In this document: in pieces, positions 12,424 to 27,250 of the stretch | Position numbering within the stretch: position 1 is the stretch's first letter | How the letters are laid out: every line of letters starts with the position of its first letter | IMG/VR virus record: IMGVR_UViG_3300034066_000082 | Span: 1 to 31,755 of that record | DNA from: a virus | Length of the DNA stretch: 31,755 nt | Reading direction: 5' to 3' (one strand) | The notes under the pieces: model-generated | Databases searched by the model: none | Seen by the model: the letters and a program-made list of their open reading frames with translations, nothing else | What the model was told of the DNA's origin: nothing | Program-made: the position numbers and the translations under genes

Positions 12424-12851
12424 GCCTTGACGACCACGCGCTTGATCTCCCTGAACTCCAGAGGCGCACCATCAGCGCCTGTAACTTCGTGCTTTTGGGT
12501 TTCTGCCCACCGCATCTGAGTCTTGGACCACCAGATCATGGCCGCCGTGTCGCCGCCCATTGCCTTCTGGAACAGGGTCCGACCGACGCCAGAGTTGGCC
12601 TTGGCCTTGCCTGCCACCAGCTCGGTGGCAAAGTGCTTGCGCAGCGTGTCGGTGTCAATGCCGCCGCGCACCAGGACTGCGATCTGCTCGATTGGCAGGC
12701 CGTAGCCTGACATTGCCTCGACCTGTTTGCGCTCTGCGTCGGTCGGCTCGAAGGCCATCCGACCAGCGTTTTCCCGTGCACCGCCGTTGTTTTTCCGGCC
12801 ATCCGGCTTTTTTAGAACCGATTTTTCAATTGTGGGTTTTCGTGCTGCCAT
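12420..12851 (-). CDS. terS: Terminase small subunit
   Basis: A 143-residue protein directly upstream of terL with ATGA overlap. The N-terminus is basic and disordered (KKPDGRKNNGGARENAGR). It is followed by a helix-turn-helix-like region (DAERKQVEAMSGYGLPIEQI with a following TDTLRKHFATEL) expected to bind the packaging site, and then a helical oligomerisation part including AMGGDTAAMIWWSKTQM. This arrangement is characteristic of small terminases that recognise pac/cos DNA and hand it to TerL. GGAGG lies 6 bases before the ATG. It overlaps the 3' end of the methyltransferase gene by 26 bases. Confidence 0.88.
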   Translation of the reverse strand: MAARKPTIEKSVLKKPDGRKNNGGARENAGRMAFEPTDAERKQVEAMSGYGLPIEQIAVLVRGGIDTDTLRKHFATELVAGKAKANSGVGRTLFQKAMGGDTAAMIWWSKTQMRWAETQKHEVTGADGAPLEFREIKRVVVKA

Positions 12852-14118
12852 CTTTAACCTCCGCGAAAGGTTGTCCAGTTTCTGCGTGAACTGCGATTTT
12901 GCCTGTGAAGTCCTGCCAGCGTTTCACGATGACGTCGCAGTAGCGTGGGTCCAGTTCCATGAGCAAGGCAGTGCGGCCGTTCTTCTCGGCTGCGATCAGG
13001 GTTGTGCCGGAGCCGCCAAACAGATCAAGAACTACATCGTGTCCTTTGCTACTGTTCTGGATCGGAATCTCTACCAACTCGACAGGCTTCATTGTCGGGT
13101 GCAGTTTTGACTGCATTGGTTTGTCAACGTTCCAGATGCTGAATTTGTTTCTGTCGCCATACCAAGGATGGCCTGCCCCATCCTTCCATCCATATAACAC
13201 CGGCTCGTGTTTGTAGTGGTAATCAGCACGCCCCAAAACGTGATTGTTTTTCACCCAAATTAACTCATGACGCACAGGCAGGCACGCTTCCTGCATCATC
13301 ATCATCATCATCATCTGCTCACCGCCCTGTGGCGCAAACACGTAGAACGGTGAGCCTGGTTTCATTGCGACAAACATTGAAGAAAACGCTGCAAGGAAAA
13401 ATTCTTTCAGTTCGTTGCCTTGTAAGTGATCGTTTTTAATCGGAGTCTGAATTCTATTTCCCCGGCCAGACGCATTCAGACTCCGATTCTTGTCGGCATA
13501 GCTGACGCCATAAGGCGGGTCTGTGACAACAAGATCGGCAAACTGCCCAGCAAGCAGCTTGTCCATCGCATCCACGCTGGTGCTGTCGCCGCACATCAGC
13601 CGGTGCTTTCCCATCACCCAGACGTCGCCTGGAACCGTGACAGGGTTTTCCTGCACGGAAGGAGCATCGTCAGGATCGGTGAGGCCGTCTGTGCCTTGCA
13701 CCGGCATCAGCGCCGCGATCTCCTCATCTGTGAACCCCACCAAGTCCAGATCAAACCCAAGATCACCCAGCTCTCCCAGCTCAAGCGCCAGCAGCTCGTT
13801 GTCCCAGCCAGCGTTCAGCGCCAGCTTGTTGTCAGCAATGACGTAGGCACGTTTCTGGGCATCGGTCCAGCCTGCCGCGACCATGACCGGCAATGATGCC
13901 ATGCCGAGTTTGCGAGCCGCCATTACGCGACCATGACCGGCAATGATGCTGCCGGACTCGTCCACCAGGACTGCGGTCGTGAAGCCCCACTCACGGATGC
14001 TGGCCGCGATCTGGGCCACCTGCTCCTCGCTGTGGGTGCGCGAGTTCTTGGCGTAGGGCACCAGCTTTTCGATGGGCCACTGCTCTACCTTATCGGCTGG
14101 ATTTGGCTTTGCTGCCAT
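12826..14118 (-). CDS. ParB-domain / DNA methyltransferase fusion (N6-adenine or N4-cytosine type)
   Basis: A 430-residue two-domain protein. Residues about 12-110 form a ParB/sulfiredoxin-like N-terminal domain with IIAGHGRVMAARKLG at 58-72. Residues about 165-410 form a methyltransferase with catalytic motif TDPPYGVSY (DPPY 200-203), HPTMKPVEL (340-348), and AdoMet motif DLFGGSGTT (365-373); the order DPPY before the AdoMet site marks the beta class. Such fusions methylate phage DNA, possibly against host restriction or to mark packaging sites. Oddities are a run of seven Met at 269-275, a 15-bp perfect inverted repeat, and a 24-bp repeat read in two frames. The 3' part looks AT-richer than the ParB part. 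Confidence 0.93.
   Translation of the reverse strand: MAAKPNPADKVEQWPIEKLVPYAKNSRTHSEEQVAQIAASIREWGFTTAVLVDESGSIIAGHGRVMAARKLGMASLPVMVAAGWTDAQKRAYVIADNKLALNAGWDNELLALELGELGDLGFDLDLVGFTDEEIAALMPVQGTDGLTDPDDAPSVQENPVTVPGDVWVMGKHRLMCGDSTSVDAMDKLLAGQFADLVVTDPPYGVSYADKNRSLNASGRGNRIQTPIKNDHLQGNELKEFFLAAFSSMFVAMKPGSPFYVFAPQGGEQMMMMMMMQEACLPVRHELIWVKNNHVLGRADYHYKHEPVLYGWKDGAGHPWYGDRNKFSIWNVDKPMQSKLHPTMKPVELVEIPIQNSSKGHDVVLDLFGGSGTTLIAAEKNGRTALLMELDPRYCDVIVKRWQDFTGKIAVHAETGQPFAEVKDGSTKTHN
13294..13314. repeat. (CAT)7 microsatellite inside the methyltransferase gene
   Basis: Seven perfect copies of CAT on the plus strand read as seven ATG codons (Met 269-275) on the coding strand. Copy-number change would alter the Met run without frameshift. 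It falls in a variable part of the methyltransferase between catalytic core motifs. Confidence 0.95.
13438..13488. repeat. 15-bp perfect inverted repeat in the methyltransferase gene
   Basis: The arms 13438-13452 (AATCGGAGTCTGAAT) and 13474-13488 are exact reverse complements, separated by 21 bases. Each arm contains GAGTC/GACTC. They encode residues about 210-228, just after the DPPY motif. The mRNA could form a stable hairpin here. Confidence 0.92.
13876..13949. repeat. 24-bp direct repeat within the ParB domain, two copies in different frames
   Basis: Positions 13876-13899 and 13926-13949 are identical over 24 bases, with starts 50 bases apart. Because 50 is not a multiple of three, the same DNA is translated as part of SIIAGHGR in one copy and ASLPVMVA in the other. 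Confidence 0.93.
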
Positions 14119-14793: not shown

Positions 14794-14824
14794 GTTCTTT
14801 AAAAAAAATTCTGCATCATGATCT

Positions 14825-14967
14825 GCCCCTACCCTACCTCCCCTACCCCTTCCTAAAAGGGGGTAGAGGCGGGGCGGGTTTTAGGGGCAGAGTCAAGACA
14901 CTTTGCCCCTATCGCCCCTAACCACCCCAGGGGCACTTAGGGGCATTTAGGGGCGATTTTTTGGGGC
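14825..14967. repeat. Cluster of AGGGGC/GCCCCT hexamers with nested inverted repeats
   Basis: AGGGGC occurs on the plus strand at 14883, 14929, 14939 and 14949, and GCCCCT at 14825, 14905 and 14914. The three copies from 14929 are exactly 10 bp apart, one helical turn. An 11-bp perfect inverted repeat (14911-14921 with 14947-14957) is followed on the plus strand by six T. The cluster extends into the 3' end of the primase gene. It could be an origin-type iteron array, a rightward terminator, or both. The rest of 14735-14946 holds the late promoter and a C-rich hairpin (14843-14866). Confidence 0.7.
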
Positions 14968-17001
14968 ATTTTTCTGCATCAGCATTGCGCTCGCCTGTGC
15001 TTGGTTGATGAAAATCCAGCCATGCTCGAACGTCTCCAGTGTGCCTGCGTTGAGCAATTGTGCGACCAATCCGTCTGATCTGGATGCCTCTGTTTTGTTC
15101 TTGGCGGTGCGCTCTGACGCTCCATCATTGACCAGCAAGTCACGCAGCGCAGACCTGCTGATGTAGGGTAAACCCTCGCGCTCTTCTGCACCTGATGCCC
15201 ACCATGCACGCTCGACCGTGCGCACATTCTCGTCGTGCTTTGTAGGTTTTTTGTGGTGTTTTGTGGCATTCGCATCGTCGTCTGGCACGGCCACGCAGGT
15301 AGTCGCTGGGCCGCCAAACTTGGTCGTGCCCATCTCGATCACCTCCAGTTTGAAGTAGATCGTCTCGCCCTTGCTTGGCAGCTCGCGCTGCTTGGTGACA
15401 GATACAGACCTGGTGCCGTCCTTTTCTGAGACCTCAATCTCGGTGTCAATGTGCGCTCGGATGCCGGACCAGCCTCGAGCGCCTCTGGCAGCGTCCTTGC
15501 CGTTGTGGTGGATGATCATCATGGCAGCGCCTGTTGCCGTGGCCACCTGGTCGAATCTGGCCATGACTGGACCCATGTCCTCGCCGCTGTTCTCGTTCGC
15601 GCCGGCGCTCATCCTGGCCAGCGTGTCGCCGATGATCAGGCGCACCGGCTTGCCCTTGGCCACCTCAATGGCACGCACCAGCTCGATCACGTCGTGGGCA
15701 TCCTGGTCGCCAGCGTAGAAGTTCATCGGGACCGGCACCATCGCCAGGTTCTCCAGGCTGCAGCCGTGAAACTTCTTGATAGCCTGCATGCGCGACCGGA
15801 TGCTGGCCGGGGCTTCGCTGGCCAGGTAGACCACCAGGCCGGGGTCGGTCTTGCGGCCGTAGCAGTCCTCGCCAGTTGCGATGGCCGTGGCCACCGACAG
15901 CGCCCAGAAGGTCTTGCCTGAGTTGCTGTCGCCGTAGACCACCACCGAGCTGCCAATGGTCATGAGGCCTTCCACCAGCTCGTCTGGTGCCTCGTAATCG
16001 CTGCCGAGCTGGTCGCCAAAGACCACCTGCAGCTTGTCGATCACGGCTGAGCCAGTTTGCTGCACCAGCAGGCCTACCAAATCATGCCCTGCTTGGGCAT
16101 AATCGTTGGCGTCCATGCCTTCGATTGGTGGGATGATTACCCTGGCACCGAATTTCGCGCTCGCCTGGTCGGCATACTTTTGTCCAACGCCATGCTTGTC
16201 GTGGTCTGCGACGATCACAATGTCCTGTCCAATTCCAAACATGTCGCGCAGACTACCAGTTACCGGCACCAAGCTGCTGGCGCTGTAAGTGGCCACGCAT
16301 GGGCGGCCTGTCGTCTCATGGATCGTGGCCGCTGTGGCAAACCCTTCTGCCACATAAATCACGCCAGGCTCATCCAGTGAGCCTACCATCCAGAATTTTC
16401 CACCGGCCTCGCCGCCTGGGTGGTAGAGTTTTCCTCCTTCGCTGTCGATGTACTGCAAGGTGGCCAGTGCGCCATCCTTGTCGAACAGGGGCACGATCAG
16501 CCTTCCGTCTCCTGTGATCCTGGCACCGTGCGCCTGGATGCCCTTTCGCTTGAGGTACGGGTGATCGGGGCTGGCTGCTTGGGCCGCTGTCCAGATCGCC
16601 TCCACGGTCGCCGCGGCCACTTCGTGCTGCTTTTCCAAGGCTGCTTCGCGCAATGCCTTAGCCTCTGCCAGCCTCCTGGCGTGGGCCATCTCCTCTGTGG
16701 CTGTCAGCCTCCTGCCAACGTCAGCACGCCAGGGTGATTCAAACCCCATGCGCCAGCAGCCGAAGCGGCCTGCTGGAACACCATCACCGAAGACCACATA
16801 CCAGCCGGACTTGTCGCCTGTCTTGGCGCTGCCTTTGGTCCCTGACTTGAACCGGTGCAGCTTGCCATCGAAGTGGATTTCTTCTGGTGTCTCAAGCCCT
16901 GCCGCACGCATTGCATCAATGAGCTGGGCTTCTGGTGGTGCGACGAGCTTTTCTGGTGGTGGTGCCCAAGGCCCACCGAGTACTTTGGAGAGGTCAGCCA
17001 T
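14947..17001 (-). CDS. TOPRIM primase / RecA-like replicative helicase fusion
   Basis: A 684-residue replication protein. Residues about 35-130 are an N-terminal region of unclear fold. A TOPRIM primase domain follows, with catalytic Glu in YVAEGFAT (about 219) and the DxD in VADHDKHG (266-268). A RecA-like ATPase domain has Walker A GDSNSGKT (357-364), Walker B RLIIGD (454-459) and a RepA/DnaB-like HHNGKD (498-503). The C-terminal 80 residues look like a winged helix (LPYISRSALRDLL...). It should prime and unwind phage DNA; the polymerase would then come from the host or from outside the window. I chose the ATG at 17001 because GGAG lies in front; the 21-base longer form lacks this. It is encoded opposite to the other replication genes. 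Confidence 0.92.
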   Translation of the reverse strand: MADLSKVLGGPWAPPPEKLVAPPEAQLIDAMRAAGLETPEEIHFDGKLHRFKSGTKGSAKTGDKSGWYVVFGDGVPAGRFGCWRMGFESPWRADVGRRLTATEEMAHARRLAEAKALREAALEKQHEVAAATVEAIWTAAQAASPDHPYLKRKGIQAHGARITGDGRLIVPLFDKDGALATLQYIDSEGGKLYHPGGEAGGKFWMVGSLDEPGVIYVAEGFATAATIHETTGRPCVATYSASSLVPVTGSLRDMFGIGQDIVIVADHDKHGVGQKYADQASAKFGARVIIPPIEGMDANDYAQAGHDLVGLLVQQTGSAVIDKLQVVFGDQLGSDYEAPDELVEGLMTIGSSVVVYGDSNSGKTFWALSVATAIATGEDCYGRKTDPGLVVYLASEAPASIRSRMQAIKKFHGCSLENLAMVPVPMNFYAGDQDAHDVIELVRAIEVAKGKPVRLIIGDTLARMSAGANENSGEDMGPVMARFDQVATATGAAMMIIHHNGKDAARGARGWSGIRAHIDTEIEVSEKDGTRSVSVTKQRELPSKGETIYFKLEVIEMGTTKFGGPATTCVAVPDDDANATKHHKKPTKHDENVRTVERAWWASGAEEREGLPYISRSALRDLLVNDGASERTAKNKTEASRSDGLVAQLLNAGTLETFEHGWIFINQAQASAMLMQKNAPKNRP

Positions 17002-17003
17002 TT

Positions 17004-17858
17004 TTAGTCTCCACAGAAGCACGCAATGGCTTCTTCATTTTTGTCAAACATGTCTCGTTGTTCCTTGCTAAATTTCAGCATTGAAGAGTAGTTGGGTCGG
17101 TCTTTCCTGAAGTACTCCCCCCCCGTGATTCCAGGATTTGTAATTGATCCTTCCTGGCTTGCCCACCAAATTGCACGCTCTGGCTTCTCTGCGATCAATG
17201 ACAAAATCTGCGACGCGCCTTTGAGAAAACACAGGTCGCAGTTTCCGTGATAAGTCACGCCGCCAATGTTTGGCAGCCCAAGATCAAATGACTGTTTGGC
17301 CCAGAACTGTGCCACGTCCTGACGTGTCACATTGGCATCAGCAAGGGGCATAAGTCGGTGAATACCCTTCATGCCGTCTGACGGGTTGGCTCTGATCTTG
17401 GCTACTCGCCGAGGCTCATCGGCTCGGATGCCGACCATGTTGTCCCAGTCATCCCACCCTATGTGGTGTCTGCAATAGTTGGCAAATGGCTTGATCTTCA
17501 GATCGACTGTGCAAAACCTGGTCACTGGGTTCGGCAGGTAATTTTTTTTCCTGATCAGAGCCTCAAATGGCTCGCCATTTCTTGCCGCACTAGCAAAGTC
17601 AACCACTCGCACACGGTCGCGTGGCTCTTCAGCGTCCTGCCACTCCAGCCATGTGATGGGCACGCCCCAATGCTCTCCACAGTCGCGCACAAATTGCAGG
17701 GTGGCTTCGTCCTCCTTGCCGGTGTTGGCAAACATCACAACGCAGTCGTCTGGTAATCCACTGTTTGACTGCAGCACCCGCCACAGCATATAGGCGCTGG
17801 TGCGCCCACCGCTGAAGCTGATGCATGTCGGGCTGTCGATCTTAAATGGATCAGCCAT
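17004..17858 (-). CDS. PP-loop ATPase, PAPS-reductase-like
   Basis: A 284-residue protein of the adenine nucleotide alpha-hydrolase (PP-loop) superfamily. The pyrophosphate-binding loop is SFSGGRTS (14-21). Further family features are VMFANTGKEDE (41-51), RFCTVDLKIKPF (114-125) and GIRADEPRR (143-151). Cysteines at 207 and 210 (NCDLC) and 280 and 282 (CFC) could bind a metal or Fe-S centre, as in phage and Dnd-type PAPS-reductase-like proteins. True PAPS reductases make sulfite; phage relatives are of unproven function, and DNA or nucleotide sulfur modification is one idea. It is between cro and primase, overlapping cro by 8 bases. It is AT-richer than its neighbours. Confidence 0.87.
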   Translation of the reverse strand: MADPFKIDSPTCISFSGGRTSAYMLWRVLQSNSGLPDDCVVMFANTGKEDEATLQFVRDCGEHWGVPITWLEWQDAEEPRDRVRVVDFASAARNGEPFEALIRKKNYLPNPVTRFCTVDLKIKPFANYCRHHIGWDDWDNMVGIRADEPRRVAKIRANPSDGMKGIHRLMPLADANVTRQDVAQFWAKQSFDLGLPNIGGVTYHGNCDLCFLKGASQILSLIAEKPERAIWWASQEGSITNPGITGGEYFRKDRPNYSSMLKFSKEQRDMFDKNEEAIACFCGD

Positions 17859-18030
17859 TTACTGGCTCCCGATCTGCTTTCAGCACTCCCTCGGTCTTGA
17901 CCTCCAGCTCGTACTGTCGTCCCATCGGAGGGGTCTCGCCCCATGTGTAGATCACCTGGGGCCAGATGCCCAGTGCGTCGGCCAGCTTCTTCGTGCTGCC
18001 GTAGTAGTTAATTGCCTCTTGGGTCTTCAT
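17851..18030 (-). CDS. cro: Cro-like repressor, P22 Cro family
   Basis: A 59-residue DNA-binding protein matching P22 Cro (61 aa) along its length. MKTQEAINYYGSTKKLADAL corresponds to P22 MYKKDVIDHFGTQRAVAKAL, GIWPQVIYTWGE to GISDAAVSQWKE (helix-turn-helix), and YELEVKTEGVLKAD to YRLEIVTAGALKYQ. I start it at the ATG at 18030, which has GGAAGGA just upstream; a longer frame extends through the promoter region and is not credible. It is the first gene of the leftward early unit and faces the overlapping promoters at 18063-18102, where it presumably binds. No CI partner is visible. Confidence 0.9.
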   Translation of the reverse strand: MKTQEAINYYGSTKKLADALGIWPQVIYTWGETPPMGRQYELEVKTEGVLKADREPVNG

Positions 18031-18062
18031 TTCATTCCTTCCAGATAATTTTTCATGGGGTG

Positions 18063-18092
18063 TTGACATCTTAAACAGAAAAGTGCTACAGT
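18063..18092 (+). promoter_or_regulatory. Rightward early promoter
   Basis: Consensus TTGACA (18063-18068), an 18-bp spacer and TACAGT (18087-18092) preceded by TG at 18084-18085, an extended -10. Transcription would begin near 18099 and run into the Sak4-like gene, which starts at 18152 after a GGAG site. Confidence 0.75.
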
Positions 18093-18096
18093 GCAA
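18068..18096 (-). promoter_or_regulatory. Leftward early promoter for cro, overlapping the rightward one
   Basis: On the minus strand TTGCAC (18096-18091), a 17-bp spacer and TAAGAT (18073-18068). Matches to consensus are modest (three and four of six). It would drive cro, the PP-loop gene and the primase. Its two elements occupy the same DNA as those of the rightward promoter. Confidence 0.5.
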
Positions 18097-18102
18097 CCAC
18101 TG
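18089..18102. promoter_or_regulatory. Candidate Cro operator dyad
   Basis: CAGTG-CAAC-CACTG is a perfect 5-bp inverted repeat in 14 bp. It covers the rightward -10 and the leftward -35. Size and place fit a Cro dimer site, but the operator sequence of this Cro is unknown. Confidence 0.5.
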
Positions 18103-18151
18103 CGCAACCGGATGGTCCGAAAGCGCAGCAACCCAAATAGGAGAGCCACTC

Positions 18152-18829
18152 ATGGCAATCAATGTGAAGACCACCGGCAGCTTGGCTGCCAACGGTGTCA
18201 AAGTCCTGGTCTATGGCCAGGCCGGTGCTGGCAAGACCAGCCTGATCAAAACCCTTCCCAGCCCCATTGTGCTGTCGGCAGAGGGAGGCCTGCTGTCCAT
18301 CCAGGACGCCGACCTGCCATTCATCGAGATCACCTCGATGACTGAGCTGCAGGAGGCTTACACCTGGCTGACCAGCAGCGACGAGGCCAAGTCCTACAAA
18401 TCGGTGGCACTGGACAGCATCAGCGAGATCGCCGAGGTCTGCCTGAACACCGAGAAGAAGGCTACCAAAGACCCACGCCAGGCTTACGGTGCGATGCAGG
18501 AGCAGATGGCCGACATCATTCGCGCCTTCCGCGACCTGCCTGGCCGCCACGTCTACATGAGCGCCAAGCTGGAGAAGACCCAAGACGAAATGGGCCGAGT
18601 GCTGTACGCGCCCAGCATGCCTGGCAACAAGACCGGCCAGGCGCTGCCCTACTTCTTCGACGAGGTGCTGGCCCTGCGCGTTGAGAAGGATGGCGACGGA
18701 GCCACCCAGCGTGCGCTGATGTGCGACTCGGATGGCCTGTGGCTGGCCAAGGACCGCAGCGGCAAGTTGGATGCCTGGGAGGCACCGGACCTGAGCGCAG
18801 TGTTTGCCAAGATTGGGGGCAAGGCATGA
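18152..18829 (+). CDS. Sak4-like RecA-fold ATPase (single-strand annealing / recombination)
   Basis: A 225-residue P-loop ATPase of the AAA_24 / Sak4 type. Walker A is GQAGAGKT (22-29), Walker B is SVALDSISE (84-92), and the ADIIRAFRDLPGRHVYMSAK region matches the core of phage Sak4 proteins. Sak4 proteins bind ssDNA and, together with an ssDNA-binding protein, promote strand annealing or exchange. A DUF669 ssDNA-binding protein is encoded two genes downstream, which fits. GGAG lies before the ATG at 18152; a longer frame would begin inside the promoter. It is first in the rightward operon, so it is an early product presumably repressed by Cro. Confidence 0.88.
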   Translation: MAINVKTTGSLAANGVKVLVYGQAGAGKTSLIKTLPSPIVLSAEGGLLSIQDADLPFIEITSMTELQEAYTWLTSSDEAKSYKSVALDSISEIAEVCLNTEKKATKDPRQAYGAMQEQMADIIRAFRDLPGRHVYMSAKLEKTQDEMGRVLYAPSMPGNKTGQALPYFFDEVLALRVEKDGDGATQRALMCDSDGLWLAKDRSGKLDAWEAPDLSAVFAKIGGKA

Positions 18830-19433: not shown

Positions 19434-19961
19434 ATGGCTTTTCTCGGACAAACTTTCGACGCAAACGAACTGCCGCAAGGCACTGGCGGCAACTTCGAGC
19501 CGCTGCCGGAAGGCAACTACAACGCCAGCATCACACAGGCTGAGCTGAAGAACACCAACGACGGTGGCGGCCAGTACATCAAGCTGCGCCTGGACATCAC
19601 CGGTCCAACGCACCAAGGCCGGGTGGTGTTCTCAAACCTCAACATCAAGAACGCAAGTGCCAAGGCCGAGGAGATCGGCCGCCAGCAGCTTGGCGAAATC
19701 ATGCGTGCGGTCGGGCTGGCCAAGGTGACCGACACCGACCAGCTCATCGGTGGCAATGTCAACGTCAAGCTGACCATTCGCGCAGCACGCACTGATGAGA
19801 AGACCGGCAAGACCTACGACGCCAGCAACGAGGTCAAGGGTTACCGAGCCATCAACGGTGGCGCAGCACCAGCAGCGTTCAAGGCTGCAGCACCCGCAGC
19901 AGCTCCGGCAGCAGCGTCTGCACCTGCCAAGGCTTCGCCGCCCTGGGTGAAATCCAAGTAA
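19434..19961 (+). CDS. DUF669 single-stranded-DNA-binding protein
   Basis: A 175-residue protein of the DUF669 family, which supplies ssDNA-binding function beside phage recombinases. Residues 1-145 contain the family blocks: F-LPEGNYNASITQAELKNT, GGGQYIKLRLDITGP, GRVVFSNLNIKN, a QQLGEIMRAVGLAKVTDTD stretch, and a VNVKLTIRAARTDEKTGK strand. An Ala/Pro-rich flexible linker (about 146-166) leads to a short PPWVKSK end, where bacterial SSB would carry an acidic protein-docking tip; here it is basic. AAGGAG precedes the ATG. It should coat ssDNA made by the helicase and nuclease and load the Sak4-like ATPase. Confidence 0.85.
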   Translation: MAFLGQTFDANELPQGTGGNFEPLPEGNYNASITQAELKNTNDGGGQYIKLRLDITGPTHQGRVVFSNLNIKNASAKAEEIGRQQLGEIMRAVGLAKVTDTDQLIGGNVNVKLTIRAARTDEKTGKTYDASNEVKGYRAINGGAAPAAFKAAAPAAAPAAASAPAKASPPWVKSK

Positions 19962-20029: not shown

Positions 20030-21061
20030 ATGAAGATACCCGAGTCAGAGCATACCATCCAGGCGCTGATTGACAAAGCGCACGAAGCAAAGGCCGAGCA
20101 GCCAAGGGGCCACATGGGCTGCAGCCAGCTTGGCCACGCATGCGACCGCTGGCTGTGGCTGAGTTTTCGCTGGGCCGTGCAGCCCAAGTTCCCTGGCCGC
20201 ATCCTGCGCCTGTTCAGGCGTGGCCAGATGGAGGAGGCCACCATCGTGTCGGACCTGCGCGCCATCGGCCTCGATGTGCGTGGCTCAGGCAAACAGCAGA
20301 CGCGCGTGGACTTCGGCTGCCATGTGTCCGGCAGCCTGGACGCCATCATCGAGTCTGGCGTGCCAGAAGCGCCAAAGAAGCGCCACATTGCCGAGTTCAA
20401 GACCCACAGCAAAAAGTCATTTGACGACCTGCTCAAAGCTGGCTCGGTGGCCAGTTCCAAGCCTGAACACTTCGTCCAGATGCAGCTTTACATGCACGGC
20501 ACCGAGATTGATCGGGCCTTGTACGTGGCGGTCTGCAAGGATGACGACCGCATCTACACCGAGCGCGTGCGATACGACCAGGTGGTGGCTGAGAAGTACA
20601 TTGACCGCGGCCACCGTCTGGCGATGGAAGACCGCATGCCGCCACCGATCAGCACCGATCCATCTTGGTATCAGTGCAAGTTCTGCGATGCGCATGATTT
20701 CTGCCACCAGAGCAAGACCACCCAGCATGTGAACTGCCGCACCTGCGCCCACAGCACGGCCAAGTCGGACAGCACCTGGCATTGCGCCAAGTGGGATGAC
20801 ACGATACCGCTGGAGGCCCAGCGCACCGGATGCGAGAGCCATGTCCTGCATCCCGACTTGGTGCCTTGGCAGCGCAAGGACGGGCCGGACGAGTGGACGG
20901 CTGTGTATGAGATCAATGGCGTGAATCTGGCCAATGGCGATCCTGAGCAAGAGGGTGTCTACGGCTCCAAAGAGTTGCTGGCCAATGCCGCTGCCTGCGC
21001 CAGCGGTGATTCGTTCATCGCCGAGATGCGCAAGGATTTTGGCGGGAGGATTGTCGGATGA
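20030..21061 (+). CDS. PD-(D/E)XK nuclease, RecB/Cas4-like, with Fe-S-type cysteines and extra zinc ribbon
   Basis: A 343-residue nuclease. The catalytic core shows GSLDA (Asp 104), AEFKT (Glu 122, Lys 124) and QMQLY (150-154), the RecB-family Q-x-x-x-Y-like motif. Cys 31 or 38 near the N-terminus and CKFCDAHDFC (216, 219, 225; CxxC-x5-C) reproduce the one-plus-three cysteine plan of the 4Fe-4S staple in Cas4/AddB nucleases. After it comes a second Cys set (236, 239, 252, 268) that could bind zinc. It probably resects DNA ends to make ssDNA for the Sak4/DUF669 pair. AAAAGGAG precedes the ATG. No helicase domain is fused; a helicase is encoded downstream. Confidence 0.88.
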   Translation: MKIPESEHTIQALIDKAHEAKAEQPRGHMGCSQLGHACDRWLWLSFRWAVQPKFPGRILRLFRRGQMEEATIVSDLRAIGLDVRGSGKQQTRVDFGCHVSGSLDAIIESGVPEAPKKRHIAEFKTHSKKSFDDLLKAGSVASSKPEHFVQMQLYMHGTEIDRALYVAVCKDDDRIYTERVRYDQVVAEKYIDRGHRLAMEDRMPPPISTDPSWYQCKFCDAHDFCHQSKTTQHVNCRTCAHSTAKSDSTWHCAKWDDTIPLEAQRTGCESHVLHPDLVPWQRKDGPDEWTAVYEINGVNLANGDPEQEGVYGSKELLANAAACASGDSFIAEMRKDFGGRIVG

Positions 21062-21788: not shown

Positions 21789-22042
21789 AAGATGACATCA
21801 TCCGCATGGCGCGGGAGGCTGGATTCTTTCCTGATTGGAACTGGGATCGGACAAATTGGCACGCCGCTGGATTTAGTGGATCGTTTGAACGTCTTGTCGA
21901 GCTTGTCCGTGCTGACGAGCGTGAGGCGTGTGCGAAGGTGTGTGAAACGCAATCGGCGCGGTGGCATACCGACCAGCGTGACGTTTACGTTGCTCAAGAA
22001 TGCGCCGCCGCCATCCGAGCAAGGGGGAGCGATGCTGCGTGA
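21785..22042 (+). CDS. Small phage protein of unknown function
   Basis: An 85-residue protein starting MKDDIIRMAREAGFFPDWNW. It has an aromatic-rich loop (FSGSFERLVELVRADEREAC) and an Ala-rich helical end. MAREAGF and LVRADEREACAK-CE are blocks seen again and again in early-region proteins of many proteobacterial phages with no known function. It starts with an ATGA overlap and overlaps the helicase start by 11 bases, so the two are translationally linked. Confidence 0.78.
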   Translation: MKDDIIRMAREAGFFPDWNWDRTNWHAAGFSGSFERLVELVRADEREACAKVCETQSARWHTDQRDVYVAQECAAAIRARGSDAA

Positions 22043-23633
22043 CTACCAACAGCGCACCATCGACCAGCTCTATGCCTGGTTTGAGGCTGGCCACCACGGC
22101 AATCCATGCCTGGTGCTGCCGACCGGCTCAGGCAAGAGCCACATCGTGGCCGCGCTGTGTAAGGACGCCCTGCAGAACTGGCCGGAAACGCAGATTCTGA
22201 TGCTCACGCATGTCAAGGAGCTGATCGAGCAAAACGCCGAGAAGATGCGCCTGCACTGGCCAGGCGCGCCGATGGGCATCTACAGCGCCAGCATCGGCAA
22301 GAAGCAGCTCGGTGAGCCGATCACCTTTGCAGGCATCCAGTCGGTGCGCAGCAAGGCCAAGGAGCTGGGCCACATCGACCTGGTGATCATCGACGAGTGC
22401 CACTTGGTCAACCACAAGGACGAAGGGGGCTACCGCCGCCTGCTGGCCGAGCTGAAGTCCATCAACCCTGCGCTGAGGGTGGTGGGCCTGACGGCCACGC
22501 CTTACCGCCTGGGGCATGGCCTGATCACCGACAAGCCGGCGCTGTTCGACGCCCTGATTGAGCCTGTGACCATCGAGGAGCTGATCTTCAAGGGCTACCT
22601 GGCCACGCTGCGCTCCAAGGTCACCAAGGCCAAGCTGGACACCACTGGCGTGCACAAGCGTGGCGGTGAGTTCATCGAGGCCGAGCTGCAGGCGGCAGTC
22701 GATACCGACGACAACAACCAGCGGGTTGTGCGTGAGGTGATTGATCTGGCAGGAGACCGCAAGGCCTGGCTGGTGTTTTGCACAGGCGTCAAGCACGCCC
22801 ACCACGTAGCCGAAGTCCTACAACAGCAAGGCATTGCCGCTGACTGCGTGACGGGTGAAACGCCGAAGAAAGAACGCGAGCGAATGCTTTCTGACTTCAA
22901 GGCTGGCCGCTTGCGTGCGCTGACCAATGCTAATGTCCTGACCACCGGCTTTGATTACCCTGACATTGACCTGATCGCCATGCTGCGCCCGACCATGAGC
23001 GCCAGCCTGTATGTCCAGATGGCAGGCCGAGGCATGCGGGTTAAGAGCCACACCGACCACTGCTTGGTGCTTGACTTTGCTGGCGTGGTGGCAACGCACG
23101 GTCCGATCACCGCGGTGCAGCCGCCCAAGAAGGCAGGCGACGGCAATGGCGAGGCACCAGTCAAGGTCTGCGACAACTGTGGCGAGCTGTGCGCCATCTC
23201 GGTGGCCAACTGCCCTGCCTGCTGCCATGCCTTTCCAGAGCCTGAGCGCAAGATGCTGGAGCTGCGCAACGACGACATCATGGGCCTAGAGGGAAAAGAC
23301 CTCGAGGTGACGAGCTGGAACTGGCGCAGGCACATCAGCAAGGCCAGCGGCAAGGAGATGTTGTCCTGCACCTACTATGGCAGCCTGTCCGACAGGCCGA
23401 TCACCGAGTACCTGCCTGTGCTGCATGACGGGTATGCAGGCGACAAGGCCATGCGCCAACTGATGACGATGGCAACATCGTCCGGTGCGAATCTGGCCCA
23501 GGCCACGCACATGGAAGGCAGCGAAGGGCTGGAGTACCTGGCCGTGCAGATGAGCAACAGCCAGCCGCCCAGCAGCATTGAGTACAAGATGGACGGGAAG
23601 TTTCACCGTGTTTTGAAAAGGAGTTGGGCATGA
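22032..23633 (+). CDS. Superfamily 2 DNA helicase (DEAD/DEAH-type, RadD-like) with zinc ribbon
   Basis: A 533-residue helicase. Motif I is LPTGSGKS (29-36), motif II is IIDECH (119-124), motif III is TATP (154-157) and motif VI is QMAGRGMR (329-336). A four-Cys zinc ribbon follows (CDNC at 380-383, CPAC at 394-397), and a C-terminal domain of about 130 residues has no obvious fold. This is the layout of phage and bacterial RadD-like helicases used in recombination and replication-fork repair. AGGGGGAG precedes the ATG at 22032; a frame extending further upstream belongs to the neighbouring gene. It probably works with the nuclease and annealing proteins encoded beside it. Confidence 0.92.
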   Translation: MLRDYQQRTIDQLYAWFEAGHHGNPCLVLPTGSGKSHIVAALCKDALQNWPETQILMLTHVKELIEQNAEKMRLHWPGAPMGIYSASIGKKQLGEPITFAGIQSVRSKAKELGHIDLVIIDECHLVNHKDEGGYRRLLAELKSINPALRVVGLTATPYRLGHGLITDKPALFDALIEPVTIEELIFKGYLATLRSKVTKAKLDTTGVHKRGGEFIEAELQAAVDTDDNNQRVVREVIDLAGDRKAWLVFCTGVKHAHHVAEVLQQQGIAADCVTGETPKKERERMLSDFKAGRLRALTNANVLTTGFDYPDIDLIAMLRPTMSASLYVQMAGRGMRVKSHTDHCLVLDFAGVVATHGPITAVQPPKKAGDGNGEAPVKVCDNCGELCAISVANCPACCHAFPEPERKMLELRNDDIMGLEGKDLEVTSWNWRRHISKASGKEMLSCTYYGSLSDRPITEYLPVLHDGYAGDKAMRQLMTMATSSGANLAQATHMEGSEGLEYLAVQMSNSQPPSSIEYKMDGKFHRVLKRSWA

Positions 23634-26635: not shown

Positions 26636-27250
26636 TCAGCTTCCTCTCTTGGTCAACATTGCGCTGGCAATCTCCAGCATGAATTTTGTCTGCTCCAGGT
26701 TTGCTGGCTGCGCTGCCCAGCCAACCGTGATCTGTCCAACGAAGCGATGCGAGTCTGGTGGGACGCTCACACGGCAGGTGTACGCAACACCCTTCTCAAG
26801 ATACCAAAGTCCGACCTCAGACTGTGCATAGCGGTACTCGCCGCAGGGTATTTCATTGGTCATCAGCTTGACCACATCGGAATTGTTCGACGAGTTGTGC
26901 GTGAACAGGCCGACGTCAATGTTCTCAATGGTCTTGTCGCGTCCGTCCTTGGTGTAGGCCTTGTAGAGTGTCCTGGAGTTGAACAGCGGATTGACCTTGA
27001 AGATCGCCACCACCGTCGCACCAGTCTGCTTGAACAGCATCGTTGCCGCATCATCGGCTCGGTCTGTCCGTATCTCCGGCAGCTTCTGCGACTCCTTGTA
27101 GGCGTCGCGGATGAACTCCTGGCTCTCGTACAGGGCAAAACCAGCAAAGGCGATCACCGCCATCAGGATGACTGCGAACAGCTTGAAAGGGCTGTCCACG
27201 TACCCCAGAATCTTGTCCAGGGTGGTGTTGGCGTTGAGCTTCTCGGTCAT
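26636..27250 (-). CDS. Membrane-anchored periplasmic protein of the lysis cassette
   Basis: A 204-residue protein with a single membrane helix at residues 23-41 (KLFAVILMAVIAFAGFAL) after a short cytoplasmic N-terminus. A periplasmic alpha/beta domain of about 150 residues follows, with blocks TGATVVAIFKVNPLFNSRTL and YTCRVSVPPDSHRFVG; two Cys lie at IPCGEY and YTCRV. The fold could be PAS- or GAF-like. Proteins like this lie beside holin genes in other podoviruses; one idea is that it senses envelope state or times lysis. It is ATGA-coupled to the gene upstream and is two bases from the holin start. Confidence 0.78.
   Translation of the reverse strand: MTEKLNANTTLDKILGYVDSPFKLFAVILMAVIAFAGFALYESQEFIRDAYKESQKLPEIRTDRADDAATMLFKQTGATVVAIFKVNPLFNSRTLYKAYTKDGRDKTIENIDVGLFTHNSSNNSDVVKLMTNEIPCGEYRYAQSEVGLWYLEKGVAYTCRVSVPPDSHRFVGQITVGWAAQPANLEQTKFMLEIASAMLTKRGS

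Follow-up and report, generated by a model that had tools for sequence, protein, structure and literature searches.

A predicted bidirectional early control point between the primase and sak4 genes of a probably virulent, CI-less phage

Results

Organization of the locus

The stretch of DNA analysed here, hereafter the window, covers all 31,755 bases of an IMG/VR virus record that is classed as linear and is therefore probably a fragment of a phage genome. Leftward of the site under study the window carries DNA methyltransferase, terminase, portal, major head and head-closure genes, and rightward it carries genes for Sak4, an SSB-like protein, a Cas4-type exonuclease and a helicase (Table 1). 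An additional PAPS-reductase-like gene lies between cro and the primase gene in the window and in two relatives (L014 and L060), and was undetected there in most relatives. Farther left, positions 12826-14118 encode a ParB-like nuclease fused to a DNA methyltransferase (phrog_498, with ParB-like families across the first ~150 residues), and a long imperfect inverted repeat (CTGCCCCTAC...GGGGCAG; 14823-14892) lies past the end of the primase gene, where it could be a terminator or an origin-like structure; it drew only chance microRNA matches in an RNA-family scan.

For comparison, 80 relatives were retrieved with the Sak4 protein as query, and core counts refer to 57 loci with a usable core, the window among them, which are related to one another. 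The closest named relative, MW202867.1 (L002), comes from Manatee Spring; its 34.5-kb genome is circular and carries P22-like head genes. Isolated Alteromonas phages (among them PB15 and XX1924), Idiomarinaceae phages (among them 1N2-2) and Salicola phages have the same locus layout. The rightward operon of MW202867.1 also contains a gene annotated as 'sigma-70' (26780-27202), a sigma-like phage factor that could bear on late transcription.

Table 1. Features at and around the divergent site of the window
Feature	Position	Strand	Evidence
TOPRIM primase/helicase, fixed left neighbour of the cassette	14947..17022	-	PF13481, PF13362, PHROG primases
PAPS-reductase-like protein, leftward gene 2, in some relatives only	17004..17858	-	PF01507, phrog_424
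P22-type Cro, 59 aa, leftward operon gene 1	17851..18030	-	PF14549 62.5 bits; phrog_409; closest solved structures 2hin, 1rzs
Predicted rightward early promoter: TTGACA (18063-18068), N18, extended -10 TG-C-TACAGT (18087-18092), predicted +1 A18099	18063..18092	+	10/12 consensus matches
Predicted leftward early promoter: TTGCAC (18096-18091), N17, TAAGAT (18073-18068), predicted +1 ~18061	18068..18096	-	7/12 consensus matches
Candidate operator within shared core; class consensus TTAaCCGGAAA..GGTAAAG, from which the window copy TTAAACAGAAAAGTGCTACAG deviates	18069..18090	.	Core tracks regulator class
Predicted 5'-leader RNA hairpin CUGCGC-AAC-CGGA-UGG-UCCG-AAA-GCGCAG, head of sak4 message	18100..18128	+	Covariation, one copy per phage, fold
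Shine-Dalgarno AGGAG of sak4, outside the hairpin	18139..18143	+	Sequence; AAGGAG conserved in leader alignment
Sak4-like AAA_24 ATPase / ssDNA annealing protein, rightward operon gene 1	18152..18829	+	PF13479 101 bits; phrog_124
SSB-like protein, rightward operon	19434..19961	+	phrog_2300 (no function named), phrog_6015 SSB
Cas4-domain exonuclease, rightward operon	20030..21061	+	phrog_1990
Helicase, rightward operon	21792..23633	+	phrog_16

Two predicted promoters interlocked in one core

Two sigma70-type promoters are predicted to share a single core of ~34 bp, each with its -35 element set against the -10 element of the other. The rightward promoter proposed in the initial annotation is well formed, with TTGACA, an 18-bp spacer and an extended TGCTACAGT, and agrees with consensus at 10 of 12 positions. 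The leftward TTGCAC/TAAGAT pair proposed alongside it is present in the sequence; its 7 matches in 12 are at chance level by themselves, and it becomes credible because an interlocked partner is kept in 45 of the 57 loci. These counts were scored against a sigma70-type consensus, which may not be the preference of the host. A pair with matching geometry occurred in 162 of 11,400 dinucleotide shuffles (1.4%) as against those 45 of 57 interrelated loci, which bears out the claim of overlapping divergent promoters. The loci with a usable core span at least eight regulator classes, and because the interlocked geometry persists across these despite kinship, it is very likely under selection. Individual elements are also conserved: ATCTTA, at the strand-complement position of the leftward -10, is kept in most cores of the P22-Cro class, and a TANNNT-like -10 ending 6-8 nt upstream of the hairpin is found in 57 of 57 loci. 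A palindrome spanning the whole core was considered as a general feature and dropped, since symmetry reached 5% or less in 8 of 57 loci (0.82 in the window itself), and we claim class-specific inner dyads alone.

The Cro regulator and its candidate operator

The gene adjoining the core had been called a P22-Cro homologue, an assignment that its match to the P22_Cro profile confirms: PF14549 scores 62.5 bits against a cut-off of 30.2, the match takes in positions 1-55 of the 60 in the profile, and the window has no second copy. In sequence the protein matches P22 Cro (1rzs), Gp39 (2hin) and PY54 Cro, the last of which works at a single 16-bp palindrome (PMC4488713). Candidate dyads number at most one per core. 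Within the P22-Cro class they are clear in L002 (ACCGGAAATCCGGT; ACCGG-N4-CCGGT), L031 and L061, and weak in the window, where the candidate operator departs from the class consensus by TTAACCGGAAA to TTAAACAGAAA and by GGTA to GCTA. The recognition helix of the window Cro is identical to that of its relatives despite this deviation, and the site in the window may be a weaker one or may resist the repressor.

A different Cro site, the CAGTG-N4-CACTG dyad at 18089-18102, had been put forward in the initial annotation, and we reject it. The dyad occurs as a sole exact copy in the window, where 2.15 copies are expected by chance at up to one mismatch. Its left half coincides with the rightward -10 sequence and is found in 7 of 57 loci, divided between two unrelated regulator classes; it is kept there because a TACAGT or CACAGT -10 implies it. 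The right half consists of the 5' arm of the conserved hairpin plus flanking bases. The core itself is the likelier binding site, since regulator and core are co-inherited.

Joint exchange of regulator and core

Across the relatives, the leftward gene encodes either a P22_Cro-like protein or a small HTH protein of one of several unrelated types, phrog_18104 in most cases, and classes were assigned by motifs in the regulator sequence. The core tracks these classes closely. In nearest-neighbour prediction over 41 loci, the core gave the correct class for 40.3, compared with 12.8 for the hairpin, 12.0 for sak4 and ~14 by chance, and in a residual test none of 2000 permutations equalled the core. 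Over the same 36 loci, the core predicted the class in 35 and the left neighbour (the gene beyond the regulator, on the primase side) in 13, and an independent scan added 13 new cores, every one of which was assigned to the correct class. Conversely, 24 pairs of loci have a hairpin and sak4 that are alike (>=90%) and a regulator and core that differ. Exchange between core and regulator is seen in 0-1 of 41 loci, whereas it is frequent on the two outer sides. This pattern indicates that regulator and core move as one cassette of ~250 bp between a fixed primase and a fixed sak4, jointly and independently of both neighbours, as expected of a repressor with its cognate operator, here the putative operator within the core. 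Part of the linkage could reflect physical closeness.

A covarying hairpin at the head of the sak4 message

Immediately beyond the rightward -10 lies a predicted two-stem hairpin, modelled on an alignment of 63 leaders as an outer stem P1 (6 pairs), a 3x3 internal loop and an inner stem P2 (3 pairs). Counts were taken from a MAFFT alignment because a simple motif-based hairpin finder lost some loci. With kinship ignored, 91.8% of cells in the 63 leaders are paired, double-change cells number 77 against 19.4 in shuffled alignments, and the covariation score is 0.411, compared with 0.137 for shuffled alignments and 0.071 or less when the structure is slid. The P1 stems, each with its complement, include CTGCGC, CACCTC, CACCAC, CTGCAA, TGTTCG, TGATCG, CGCTTC, CAGCGC and GTCGC, and additional variants appear in metagenome-assembled contigs; the stems differ freely in sequence, whereas their pairing and the unpaired A positions are conserved.

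The position of the hairpin is equally constant. When 23 records were searched with a covariance model, every phage had a single strong copy, placed at the head of the sak4 operon (the lowest-scoring best match being that of CGphi29, E 0.008), and the exact L002 version, which is common, recurred on 32 contig stretches, each followed downstream by a homologue of sak4. In all 57 loci P1 begins 6-8 nt past the -10, and given this spacing the sak4 message should begin at P1 or one base upstream of it. The hairpin ends upstream of the Shine-Dalgarno sequence, leaving it free, and keeps its place at the operon head where extra ORFs precede sak4. Such small ORFs (MLKVTFYVYSKLLGKEF..., MSSSKFEVGVVSDLFDAG...) lie between hairpin and sak4 in L050, L062, L100-L102, L109, L113, L114, L117, L121 and L122, and likewise in L047, L065, L067, L073, L074 and L082; the first operon slot therefore takes cargo.

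Whole-window and local cmscan searches of Rfam 15, at E up to 5 and 10, gave zero matches to the hairpin, and the open-licence literature yielded nothing direct on a leader RNA of this kind. As far as these sources reach, it appears to be an undescribed structured RNA. The hairpin was not seen in Moraxella, Seurat-type, Microcystis, Stenotrophomonas or Variovorax phages, whose Sak4 is more distant.

Lysogeny genes

The initial annotation had noted that neither a CI repressor nor an integrase was visible and that the phage was possibly virulent; both statements hold over a wider sample. With positive controls behaving as they should, no tyrosine integrase (PF00589) and no S24 repressor protease domain (PF00717) was found in 22 records, which include the window and complete genomes, and no serine recombinase (PF00239) in 23. 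CI and integrase are thus missing from the fragment, from the complete circular relative and from the isolates alike. Matches to HTH_3 were few, three of them above cut-off, and not all were assigned to the divergent gene. A search of a genome collection for a prophage origin returned 12 matches, all in contigs of metagenome-assembled genomes and most of them short, which say little about integration. Since the known lysogeny genes are missing across records, the phage is probably CI-less and virulent. In agreement, integrase is reported to be missing from almost all members of a set of roseophages, of whose helicases two group near 1N2-2 and CGphi29 (PMC12629253). For a Cro-only virulent phage, the open-licence literature offered no direct precedent.

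Discussion

We think it reasonably likely that the locus governs early transcription in both directions in a phage that has a P22-like head, lacks CI and is probably virulent, with a repressor acting in the shared core to exert feedback on both operons. Leftward transcription would supply first the small HTH repressor, which in the window is a P22-type Cro, and next the primase, and rightward transcription would yield the recombination and replication operon of Sak4, SSB-like protein, Cas4-type exonuclease and helicase. A repressor dimer would bind within the shared core, overlapping both promoters, so that a rising level of repressor would lower its own operon together with the opposite one, making the core a feedback timer and not a toggle. 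The rightward message would start at the conserved two-stem hairpin or one base before it. The hairpin would probably stabilize the mRNA, or else bind a factor that acts on elongation or translation; such a factor is possible because a 5'-stabilizing stem alone leaves the conserved unpaired A positions and the inner stem unexplained.

In the initial annotation the shared core was instead proposed to be a mutual-exclusion switch, in which polymerase on one promoter blocks the other, Cro biases the winner and two alternative states result. Both promoters do occupy the same ~34 bp in most relatives, and simultaneous binding of polymerases at bidirectional promoters is sterically excluded (PMC12825309), so the polymerases may well compete for the core. 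Competition by itself, however, gives no memory, and without a CI-type repressor nothing maintains the opposite state; in the same study, E. coli bidirectional promoters compete only under strong activation (PMC12825309). Moreover, replication and recombination genes lie in both operons and are probably needed together, and the dyad proposed for Cro is not conserved. A bistable switch of the lambdoid CI/Cro type would further call for an S24 repressor, an integrase or recombinase and a set of related operators, none of which was found here. We consider the switch improbable and its proposal unsupported: Cro lies within one of the two operons and is made from one promoter, and because no second, opposing repressor was found, it is simpler to suppose that both operons are under negative feedback. 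It is just as improbable that the locus is the decaying remnant of a temperate switch, that is, a lambdoid-like CI/Cro region after the loss of CI and integrase. P22-type Cro is normally partnered with a CI-type repressor and the window operator looks degenerate, as such a history would predict, but the arrangement persists in 57 loci with regulators of several types, the Alteromonas, Idiomarinaceae and Salicola isolates retain its layout, regulator and core have repeatedly been replaced in pairs, and whole records, the complete circular relative among them, are without lysogeny genes.

The two other components of the model have alternatives of their own. The link between regulator class and core might arise by hitch-hiking, through crossover at the conserved GCAACCACTG or hairpin start, with the HTH protein acting elsewhere. 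The core lies 30-40 bp from the regulator gene and crossovers would naturally fall in the conserved stretch at the hairpin, yet recombination separates core from regulator in at most one of the 41 loci while being common on both outer sides, and divergent autoregulation is the usual arrangement for small HTH regulator genes; we regard this explanation as quite unlikely. Nor do we think it likely that the hairpin acts as DNA, for example as an origin or protein site. The inverted repeat does adjoin replication genes, and covariation cannot by itself tell RNA from a cruciform or single-stranded DNA. What favours RNA is that the hairpin opens at the predicted +1 and closes short of the Shine-Dalgarno sequence, that it stays at the operon head despite ORFs inserted before sak4, and that free stem variation with kept pairing and unpaired A positions is unlike a duplex-DNA site.

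Beyond this feedback model, we offer tentatively, and with some doubt, a broader reading in which the locus would be a CI-less 'immunity region' of virulent phages. Unrelated one-gene HTH repressor-operator cassettes would be swapped at the primase-sak4 seat, possibly for co-infection exclusion, with the repressor of a resident phage shutting off a co-infecting phage that has the same core, and an undescribed single-copy leader RNA would control the recombination operon. Repressor-operator swapping is usually attributed to lysogenic immunity; its occurrence without known lysogeny genes suggests that repressor specificity is selected in virulent phages too, for instance via co-infection, and the many natural regulator-core pairs make such selection testable. 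The HTH classes also constitute paired data on the joint change of regulators and sites, and the leader hairpin, with its strong covariation, would add a new structured RNA.

Comparison with known systems places these features individually on familiar ground. By profile and by sequence match the window Cro is a member of the P22 Cro family, here without a CI partner and without the three-operator set; the divergent operon is one of recombination and replication and not cI, and in relatives the seat of Cro is taken by unrelated HTH proteins. In the lambdoid immunity region (cI-OR-cro), repressor and operator are exchanged between phages. The swapping proposed here resembles this in that a small repressor and its cognate sites would pass jointly between otherwise similar phages, and differs in having one repressor and one core, in virulent-looking phages without a lysogeny repressor, an integrase or a tripartite operator. 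The ompA-type 5'-terminal stem-loops of stable mRNAs and the HK022 put RNA likewise place a structured RNA at, or close to, the 5' end of a message or early transcript; the likeness drawn here is one of position, and the hairpin described here is a single one with a conserved A-containing internal loop and matches no Rfam family. At E. coli bidirectional promoters, starts flank or lie within a shared symmetric -10 and are 10, 18 or 23 bp apart, mostly 18 (PMC12825309). There too, opposed polymerases are mutually exclusive and one short stretch of DNA drives both directions, whereas the window has two complete promoters, the -35 of each interlocking with the -10 of the other, with separate -10 elements (18087-18092 and 18073-18068) and predicted starts ~38 bp apart. 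P22 Cro, lambdoid repressor-operator swapping and overlapping divergent promoters are each known singly; their combination in CI-less phages appears to be new.
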